Shown piece after piece: positions 15,478 to 61,802 of a stretch of 64,000 bases of DNA. The notes beneath the pieces were generated by a model, which was not told where the DNA came from, did no database searches, and saw nothing but the letters and a program-made list of their open reading frames with translations. Positions within the stretch are counted from its first letter, which is position 1; the number at the start of each line of letters is the position of its first letter. A program made the translations under genes and the position numbers. The DNA lies in assembly GCA_937973965.1 (NCBI GenBank), contig CALJJQ010000006.1, forward strand, positions 1 to 64,000, read 5' to 3'. Origin of the DNA: an uncultured Calothrix sp. (GTDB lineage: Bacteria; Cyanobacteriota; Cyanobacteriia; Cyanobacteriales; Nostocaceae).

Positions 15478-15709
15478 GGATATATTGCAATACAGTTCAG
15501 TTAGACTTAAAAGCCTGATTATTGGGTAGGTTGGGTTGAAAAATGTAGAGGCAGGGCCTAGTGGAATGCGTCCCCACGCGGAGCATGGGGACGAGATCAT
15601 CACAAAAACTGTGTGAACTTATGGGTAAATTTCCACAAAATCAACAGTCTGTGCAAAGCCTCAACCCAATCTACAGTTATCTTTCACTGAACCGTATTGG
15701 GATATATTG
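15478..15709. mobile_element. MITE-like element A, copy 1, with 10-bp target duplication
   Basis: The element is 15488-15699 (212 bp). Ends are CAATACAGTTCAG and, inverted, CAATACGGTTCAG (12 of 13). The identical 10 bases GGATATATTG stand on both sides (15478-15487 and 15700-15709). A second copy, about 90 percent alike by eye, lies at 61577-61792 with its own different duplication. No transposase frame is present. The rest of 15710-16238 is AT-rich leader DNA of hpsA in which I see no gene; a paired motif GGCGGTCATCAGCGTCACC near 16091 may form structure. Confidence 0.88.
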
Positions 15710-36977: not shown

Positions 36978-37222
36978 TTTTTTGTTTATCAGTTTTTGGG
37001 AGAAGGTTATAACGACAAAATATACCTTTTGTGCCTGTTCCCTGTCTTCAATAAGTGGTTAATCAGGTATTTATTGACACTTGACGAACATCCTCTAACG
37101 AGGAAACCCGAACTCAGGTTAAATAGGGAACAGTAGTAAGAACCATTTTCTTGTTTGGCTTTATCCAAACGACATAGAGGACTGATTGGCACTGGGTTTA
37201 GAAATAGGTAGGTAAGGAAAAG

Positions 37223-37747
37223 TTAATTACAGGGTTTGACTTCGGTACGGTTGTTGGCGTACATATAGGTACATTGGCGTTGGGAACCAGCCCAGATTAT
37301 TTGCCACATTGGGGGCGAATTTACCAGTAGGGTTCGCCCAAAACTTGTCATTTCAACTCGATATTTAATCGCTTTTTGTAGTTTATCAACTTTTTGAGTC
37401 TGGGTAATCGTAACTAGGGCGAGGTCTGGTTCTGGGTAATCAACTTCGATTTGGCGCTGGCCTTTTCTGGCTTCAATCTCATCAAACACATCTAGGGCTA
37501 ATGCCTTAGGGTCTGTTCCTTGGCGAACAGCATCAATTTCGTCTATGGGGATGATTTTATACTTTTTCCTTTCCGCTTCAACAGTTAGGTTGGTACGGGG
37601 ATTGCTAACGGGAAAAAATTGGTTTTGATTAGGGTGTTTAGTAGCCACGGAAGTGGATTGTTCACGTTGCCAAATATAAATTGCGGTTGCCACCGTAGCC
37701 AAGGTGGTGAGTATTAAACAGAAAAGTAATTTGAACTTTGCCGACAT
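37223..37747 (-). CDS. Conserved cyanobacterial hypothetical, membrane-anchored
   Basis: A 174-residue protein I do not recognise by name. An amino-terminal hydrophobic stretch (KLLFCLILTTLATVATAIYIW, residues 6-26) is a signal anchor. The soluble part has a mixed pattern with DPKALALDVFDEIEARKGQRQ and VDYPEPDLALVTITQT, then YRVEMTSFGRTLLVNSPPMWQIIWAGSQRQC. The combination with two Cys near the end (QRQCTYMY...EVKPCN) could make a disulphide in the periplasm. No operon neighbour. Confidence 0.7.
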   Translation of the reverse strand: MSAKFKLLFCLILTTLATVATAIYIWQREQSTSVATKHPNQNQFFPVSNPRTNLTVEAERKKYKIIPIDEIDAVRQGTDPKALALDVFDEIEARKGQRQIEVDYPEPDLALVTITQTQKVDKLQKAIKYRVEMTSFGRTLLVNSPPMWQIIWAGSQRQCTYMYANNRTEVKPCN

Positions 37748-60777: not shown

Positions 60778-61576
60778 GGTGATTAGTCAAAAAATAATAC
60801 TATATTCAGCCATTGTAACAAGATTGGGGGATGAGAGATATTTAGATCAGGATACAGAGTACAGGAGATACAGGGGGAGCTTTCAGGAGGAAATGTATCA
60901 AAATTTGAGTGAAATGGTGTAAGTCCTAAGAGGTTGTTTCAAAAGTTATTTTTAATACTTGAATTACCGTTTTTGGGAATGGGAAGATACGCAACATCTC
61001 GCGTCTGTACTCTCGAAGGAATTACGTAGGCGCAGCCTTGCCTTAGGCTATTACGTAGACGCGTAGCGGCTTGCCACAGGCTATTACAAATTATCTTGTG
61101 ACTATGCTCTGGGTGGTTACTCAGTCAGCGAGGGCTACTGCCTTCATTCACGAGGTAGGAGCCTCGTAGGTTCCGCATCCACGGTAAGCATGGGTGGGAT
61201 GGAAAACATAGTTCCCAACGACAATATTTCGGTTCGTCGTCAACTAGTAACACTAACCCAGGGCATACATATTGTATATTACGAGTTTGAAGCAAGAAGA
61301 TTTTTCTACAACCAAGTAAAATAAAAAAGTCATAAAGTAAAAAATCAAAATCAATGATTAATGTATGAGCTTTTAAACATTTTCAATGATACAGCAGTCC
61401 GAGCGGGATTTGTGAAATCTGACATGTAGGGTTGTTATGGGTTGACAGTTGACGGTTAACAGTCACCAGTCATCAGTCAACGATACGCTATTTTCCTGAC
61501 TTAAATAGGGTTCTCATTCAGTTTTTTCTGTTCACCTACATTTTGTATTTGTCACTAAGTCTACCTACTTATCACC
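60778..61576. other. Intergenic region between mutS2 and MITE copy 2
   Basis: 800 bases: CAGGATACAG heptads at 60846-60878, the dispersed repeat copy at 60927-61022, and two imperfect units ATTACGTAGGCGCAGCC.../ATTACGTAGACGCGTAGC... (61021-61082) of a Nostocales-type repeat. 61084-61320 is a mostly open stretch (GWVVTQSARATAFIHEV and others) that reminds me of a transposon end, unconfirmed. AACAGT-type heptads stand at 61438-61480. Confidence 0.5.
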
Positions 61577-61802
61577 CAATACAGTTCAGTTAGACTTAAA
61601 AGCCTGATTATTGGCTAGGTTGGGTTGAAGAATGTAGAGGCAGTAAGCCCTCGTGGAATGTGTCCCCACGCGGAGCATCGGGACGAGATAATCAGAAAAA
61701 CTGTGTGAACTTATGGGTAAATTTCCACAAAATCAACAGTCTATGCAAAGCCTCAACCCAACCTACAGTTATCTTTAACACCAACTGTATTGACTTATCA
61801 CC
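61567..61802. mobile_element. MITE-like element A, copy 2, with 10-bp target duplication
   Basis: The element is 61577-61792 (216 bp), starting CAATACAGTTCAG and ending CCAACTGTATTG. ACTTATCACC stands perfectly on both sides (61567-61576 and 61793-61802). It matches the copy at 15488-15699 for almost its whole length, including GTCCCCACGCGGAGCAT and AACTTATGGGTAAATTTCCA, but with different flanks, which proves independent insertion. Confidence 0.9.

Follow-up and report, generated by a model that had tools for sequence, protein, structure and literature searches.

The window, a stretch of 64,000 nucleotides from the genome of an uncultured Calothrix sp., carries two copies of a short element, which we refer to as MITE family A. 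Copy 1 occupies positions 15488-15699 (212 bp, plus strand) and copy 2 positions 61577-61792 (216 bp, plus strand). The two are 92% identical and lie in different flanking sequence. Each is bracketed by its own perfect 10-bp target duplication, GGATATATTG at 15478-15487 and 15700-15709 for copy 1 and ACTTATCACC at 61567-61576 and 61793-61802 for copy 2. An earlier, sequence-only reading of this DNA had reported both copies with these coordinates, ends and duplications, and all of them are exactly as it described. It had also proposed inverted ends starting CAATAC, which reading through both copies bears out. Copy 1 opens with the bases CAATACAGTTCAG and closes with CTGAACCGTATTG; copy 2 has the same start and closes with ACACCAACTGTATTG. 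The terminal inverted repeats of copy 1 are CAATACAGTTCAGTTA on the left (15488-15503, plus strand) and CAATACGGTTCAGTGA on the right (15684-15699, minus strand). With their small size (212 and 216 bp) and inverted CAATAC..GTATTG ends, both copies have the dimensions and termini of a MITE.

Within copy 1 we observed a second inverted pair, GGTAGGTTGGGTTGA / TCAACCCAATCTAC, and a small internal hairpin, GTCCCC..GGGGAC; the hairpin proper lies at 15570-15592 and, together with the GAGAT that follows it, spans 15570-15597 on the plus strand. Copy 1 folds better than its shuffled versions, with an RNA folding energy of -72.8 kcal/mol compared with a shuffle mean of -49.9 (z -5.75), and no shuffle equalled it. 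Folded as DNA, copy 2 gave a z of -3.68, with 2 of 200 shuffles equally good. The open reading frame listing contains no frame of 100 aa or more overlapping copy 1, and in the 80-aa listing the sole entry for copy 2 is a mechanical TTG start within its last three bases. On its inner side the right inverted repeat varies, reading CAATACGCTTGGTG in many copies and CAATACAGTTGGTG in copy 2, compared with CAATACGGTTCAG. Copies with such altered right ends also have perfect 10-bp duplications, so this portion of the repeat tolerates change.

Copies and target sites in two Calothrix genomes

The window's genome (G000, 5.41 Mb in 165 contigs) contains at least 51 pieces matching family A at 40 or more places, counts that are lower bounds because 40 of the 172 candidates were scored. 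Calothrix sp. NIES-3974 (G020), a member of the same genus represented by a single-contig chromosome, gave at least 55 matching pieces with 40 of its 183 candidates scored, and has about as many copies as the window's genome. When we searched the window's genome for the 15-base end CAATACAGTTCAGTT, allowing up to two mismatches, 99 sites were returned compared with nine for a reversed-pattern control; these numbers, with the copies at 40 places or more, put the abundance of family A far above chance. In a collection of 84,980 genomes, from which the window's own records may have been left out, the exact 38-base left end of the family was found in NIES-3974 only, in 22 stretches.

Family A occurs in short forms of ~204-221 bp and in long forms, mostly of ~305-350 bp, the long form being the short form with an insert of 115-125 bp between element positions 74 and 61-70. 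In the window's genome the short forms measure ~204-216 bp and the long ones mostly 330-350 bp, and there is also one composite of 516 bp and one of 663 bp. The insert of the long form is flanked by short direct repeats (element positions 61-74), and a long form of 343 bp in the window's genome (L038) has a short form of 210 bp (L135) as its orthologue in NIES-3974. On the basis of these two observations the long and short forms may interconvert. We also observed a second MITE family in the window's genome, family B, with copies of ~95-125 bp and CAATACGGTTCGGTTA-type ends (L066, L068, L070, L074 and L080), some of which have perfect or near-perfect 10-bp duplications.

To characterise the target sites, each left end was paired with the right end whose outer 10 bases matched best. 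Among 45 left ends in the window's genome, 22 gave a perfect 10-bp duplication, five a duplication with one mismatch and three with two; the remaining 15 had more than two mismatches or no candidate, and include truncated copies and three ends without a candidate right end nearby. The 59 left-end contexts from NIES-3974 gave 19 perfect duplications, seven with one mismatch, three with two and 30 with more or none, many of these last being truncated copies or other end-like sites fetched on purpose. Both genomes together therefore supplied 41 perfect duplications from these 45 and 59 left ends, all mutually different. At positions 4-7 of the duplication the 41 sequences have T in 32, A in 34, T in 29 and A in 29, which centres the stagger on TATA.

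Insertion of copy 1 can be followed by comparison with NIES-3974, where the flanks align at 94-95% and the element and one target copy are absent. The empty site there reads ...CATATCCC GGATATATTA CAAAC..., with the single copy GGATATATTA at the position of the duplicated target. The sequence-only reading had taken the two copies as direct evidence of transposition by an element without a transposase and had suggested looking for empty sites in sister strains; the empty site of copy 1, with its one target copy, and the lack of an open reading frame of 100 aa or more uphold that view. For copy 2 the empty site is half proven, as the right flank in NIES-3974 runs uninterrupted from a single near-identical target, (G)CTTATCACC, and the left flank is unalignable there. 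The same reading had named two observations that would speak against it, namely copies elsewhere without duplications, and duplications that form part of a longer repeat shared by the two loci. Neither was seen: duplications accompany copies in other genomes, and those in the window do not continue into any longer shared repeat.

We also compared the positions of the copies in the two genomes. Among 31 copies in the window's genome with a duplication of at most three mismatches, four (L013, L015, L020 and L038) share a MITE site with NIES-3974 as judged from both flanks, and L001 has an empty site in NIES-3974. For the rest of the 31, no flank pair was found beside a MITE among the NIES-3974 loci examined, which cover part of that genome. 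Conversely, the window has an empty site where NIES-3974 has its copy L157. As we read them, the shared sites and the empty sites in both directions indicate that insertions occurred both before and after the split of the two Calothrix lineages. With its preference for TATA targets, family A is a marker of genome change in Calothrix.

IS4-subgroup transposases in related genomes

Using PF01609 we searched eight relatives for transposases and read 30 plus 20 loci. One relative contains an insertion sequence (IS) of 1474 bp (L226) with ends CAATACTTTTCGGTTAAG and the perfect duplication GGAATCGACC. The transposase of L226 and a longer homologue, L230, match the IS4-family model NF033592 at 199 and 187 bits, against a cut-off of 115, and also match the Pfam models Nterm_IS4 and DDE_Tnp_1. 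With L230 as the query, 119 of 217 genomes of the family gave a match at E <= 1e-10. At 18 of the 30 IS loci then read, paired ends are flanked by a perfect 10-bp duplication; one further locus has a single mismatch, and 11 have unmatched flanks or single ends. All 18 translated ISs of the relatives, including two without a matching duplication (L261 and L264), have the Y-2-R-3-E-6-K (YREK) motif, and the five end types seen in these 18 coincide with five groups by transposase identity. That relatives' ISs with such ends and 10-bp duplications encode IS4-subgroup transposases agrees with the guess of an 'IS4-like' enzyme made in the sequence-only reading.

One of these groups (L267, L269 and L270) has CAATACGGTTCAGTTAAGG at both ends, with AAAG at one end of L270, and its transposases are 83-89% identical inside the group and at most 71% identical to those outside. 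The three ISs are 1488 bp long, with the duplications GTTCAGATAG, GATCTAAGCC and TTCTATATTG respectively, of which only TTCTATATTG is TATA-centred. Their ends agree with copy 1 at 15 of 16 bases on each side, and with copy 2 at 15 of 16 on the left and ~10 of 16 on the right. Most of the other ISs measure 1473-1501 bp; L256 (1802 bp) and L246-L249 (2150-2210 bp) fall outside the size range of the subgroup. The L246-L249 clade (L246 belonging to the CTGCTCGG clade), with ends CAATACTGCTCGGTTAAGG, is ~0.7 kb longer than most of the other ISs that have a similar transposase. The CAATACGGTTCGGTTAAG group (L256, L257 and L266) fits the 95-125-bp family B of the window's genome, the ends of family B resembling this CGG clade of IS4-subgroup ISs.

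We consider it very likely that family A is a non-autonomous MITE moved by cut and paste through a DDE transposase of the IS4 family, subgroup IS4, acting in trans. The inverted ends, the duplications, the target preference, the many independent insertions and one clean empty site support this directly, and the ISs of the relatives resemble it in their ends, share its duplication length and encode an IS4-subgroup transposase. Members of the IS4 family transpose by cut and paste, and by analogy family A would do the same. The transposase would recognise the inverted ends, CAATACRGTTCAGTTA in their best-kept form, and join them to a target cut with a TATA-centred stagger of 10 bp, whose repair would leave the 10-bp duplication. 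Judging from the end sequences, the enzyme would belong to the transposase clade with CAATACGGTTCAGTTAAGG ends or to a lost close relative of it. Ends, duplication length and target motif together allow the responsible enzyme family to be named for a large group of cyanobacterial MITEs.

The sequence-only reading had held that the enzyme could be searched for by its ends; this succeeded in other Nostocaceae, where such ISs were found, and failed in the window's genome and in its congener NIES-3974, an outcome that the reading had not anticipated. The L230 query gave no match at E <= 1e-10 in either Calothrix genome, and the L269 transposase gave nothing at E <= 1 in the two, a search for which the homologous L230 query, matching in other genomes, serves as the positive control. 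With NF033592, a single C-terminal fragment interrupted by a stop (83 bits) came up in NIES-3974 besides weak matches, none of them reaching the cut-off, and the locus of the fragment has no CAATAC-type end; the window's genome returned one match, at E 0.04 and below the cut-off. No IS with CAATAC ends was found in 40 regions of the window's genome, mostly of 3 kb and some ending at contig ends, which cover most end-like sites outside the known copies, with some ten two-mismatch sites left out. Inspection by eye of the frames at 18 plus three such loci revealed an IS110-type fragment and ordinary genes only, and eight PF01609 loci in the same genome have no CAATAC end pair.

Two transposases located near MITE sequence were rejected as candidates. 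The one at L106, which lies close to a Nezha-like element, is unrelated: it is bounded by separate ends, CAATACTCCGG, and has a GTTAA repeat and weak matches to IS701/IS4 models. The one at L153, near a MITE end, has its own ends CTATCCATTA and is likewise unrelated to family A; we take it to be Tn5-like.

As no such transposase was found in either Calothrix genome, the MITE is tied to the ISs through its ends and duplication length rather than through co-residence in one cell. The assignment to the IS4 subgroup is further weakened by the poor fit of the right end of copy 2, by the targets of two of the three ISs in the matching clade, which are not TATA-centred, and by the sizes of L256 and L246-L249. 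The negative result is firmer for NIES-3974, the assembly of the window's genome being a draft. On this result family A looks to have been orphaned in the Calothrix lineage, an instance of MITE copies that persist in genomes in which a source transposase was looked for and not found. There is some chance, although a rather small one, that the transposase is still in the window's genome, in unassembled repeats or on a plasmid, given that the assembly is in many contigs and that some of these stop inside long MITE forms (C147 and C109). However, the single-contig chromosome of NIES-3974 has about as many copies and no transposase was found there either.

It is far less probable that the genus harbours some other DDE transposase that moves the element, such as that of the IS with CTATCCATTA ends, and that the match to IS4 ends is convergent. 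This IS does lie between perfect 10-bp duplications, CTGCATCAAG, at L153, the sole copy read, and the same 453-aa frame is present at 14 places in NIES-3974 (L153 and L305-L310 among the loci). Its ends are unlike CAATACRGTTCAGTTA, however, whereas the IS4-subgroup clade fits copy 1 at all but one base of each 16-base end, and the two kinds of MITE end in the window's genome, CAG and, for family B, CGG, each have a counterpart among the ISs. Spread through recombination or segmental duplication, or as REP/BIME-like repeats with incidental 10-bp repeats, could draw on the strong folding of the element and on the internal palindrome of its shorter relatives, which also matches unrelated plasmids, but is refuted by 41 different perfect duplications abutting the ends exactly and by an empty site with one target copy.

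Half copies in NIES-3974

NIES-3974 also contains nine left-half copies (L152, two in L154, L157, L160, L164, L166, L172 and L175). These consist of the left end and ~106-112 bp of the element, which stops directly past GACGAGAT on the far side of the internal hairpin. The CAATAC end is precise and mostly lies at a TATA-type target. At two further hairpin breaks (L151 and L289) no left end was recognised nearby. By hairpin type, NIES-3974 has 39 full-type and 10 half-type sequences, the latter counted without L166, which presumably stands among the full-type ones, and with the breaks at L151 and L289, compared with 36 and one in the window's genome. The sole 'half' in the window's genome, L060, is of a different kind, with no left end nearby and a different continuation. 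In NIES-3974, GGGAC is preceded by A in all 10 half-type hairpins, compared with 12 of 39 full-type.

At three of the half copies the right junction leads into clear copies of the left flank. At L157 the element gives way to 66 bp that repeat the left flank (94%), and the orthologous place in the window (~37170-37236, minus strand) is empty and has one flank copy. At L160 the repeated stretch is 46 bp (100%) beginning 59 bp upstream, and in the L154 array the first half copy runs into 165 bp of left-flank sequence (99%). The flank match at L164 is 17 bp only. No flank copy was found at the second L154 copy, L152, L166, L172 or L175, the search at L152 and L175 having 100 bp of left flank. The orthologue of L172 in the window's genome, L013, is a full copy with the duplication CCCCATATCC, and because the corresponding site is full L172 looks as if it had lost its right half afterwards, and with it some 75-90 bp of flank. 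Seen from the insertion point, the broken element is joined to flanking DNA either 59-165 bp upstream, which leaves the flank repeated, or downstream, which leaves it deleted.

We built a tree of the left halves from 55 rows and 112 columns, in which 37 of the 52 inner branches were open. The half label required seven changes on this tree; shuffled labels needed 9.4 on average, and 13 shuffles in 500 did as well, figures obtained with three labels wrong (L164 counted as full, L149 and L030 counted as half). This is a weak sign that the half copies may be clustered. A speculative explanation, and one we think improbable, is that the half copies are products of one-ended or aborted transposition that halted at the hairpin and was repaired by joining to another copy of the chromosome. 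Synthesis, or a broken end, would then stop at the hairpin. To our knowledge a one-ended or aborted mode has not been described for IS4-family MITEs.

Comparison with the IS4 subgroup and published MITEs

Table 1 of De Palmenaer et al. 2008 (PMC2266710) gives subgroup IS4 a size of 1400-1650 bp, the YREK motif, direct repeats of 10-13 bp and the ends -AATR--------WTW----. Set against that table, the left end of copy 1 (CAATACAGTTCAGTTA) and the consensus CAATACGGTTCAGTTA fit and the right end of copy 1 largely does, while the altered right ends of many copies fit in their first part only. The direct repeats are 10 bp both in the MITEs and in the ISs of the relatives, and the 1488 bp of the CAATACGGTTCAGTTAAGG clade lies within the size range. 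The YREK motif and the match to the transposase model are features of the relatives' ISs, whereas the MITE encodes no transposase. Beyond the terminal repeat, we saw no likeness between MITE and IS ends when the unaligned sequences were compared by eye.

With the 212-bp copy as the query and five candidates scored per genome, a match at E <= 0.001 was obtained in 82 of 145 family genomes. Outside the genus, the matches listed mostly cover one end (~1-52 or 166-212) and sometimes the inner part (61-160 in G009). We drew 29 loci from this search, 28 of them outside the genus. Nine loci outside the genus are elements 135-261 bp long that have CAATAC ends and lie within a perfect 10-bp duplication, for example GTTTATAATA and GTATATAGGT; others have a duplication with one or two mismatches, or no partner end. 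Elements of 135-141 bp with CAATAC ends and perfect 10-bp duplications are present in six other Nostocaceae genomes. These ~135-bp MITEs of other genera are probably of the published Nezha kind, to which we liken them by description and not by sequence. Nezha, a MITE of Anabaena and Nostoc credited to Zhou and colleagues in 2008, is reportedly 134 bp long, a size with which the 135-141-bp elements agree.

The internal palindrome of a Nezha-like element (L098:1417-1552) also matches plasmids of Moraxella bovis, Methylomonas, Desulforapulum and others, in 72 records at E up to 1, many of them weak. Plasmid BLAST searches with the MITE sequences returned mostly the internal palindrome or short pieces, and one Brasilonema plasmid has most of a Nezha-like copy.

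According to PMC3049150, ISNpu3-like elements have been proposed as the source of mobility for Nezha, and PMC10969869 also cites this MITE. Anabaena sp. 90, of a related genus, has 147 complete or partial MITEs of 77-541 bp according to PMC3542288, whose authors classed them as 'type II', with no related IS in the genome; the comparison with family A is by description and not by sequence. Judged from titles and the beginnings of abstracts among the hits listed, and with subscription papers mostly outside the search, no paper describing this Calothrix family was found. Family A differs from Nezha in being longer (~204-221 and 305-350 bp), in having an extra internal hairpin, and in having a 38-base left end confined to NIES-3974 among the 84,980 genomes, the window's own records possibly omitted. 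Family A is thus a genus-specific member of a familiar kind of IS4-type MITE, and one that is apparently orphaned.
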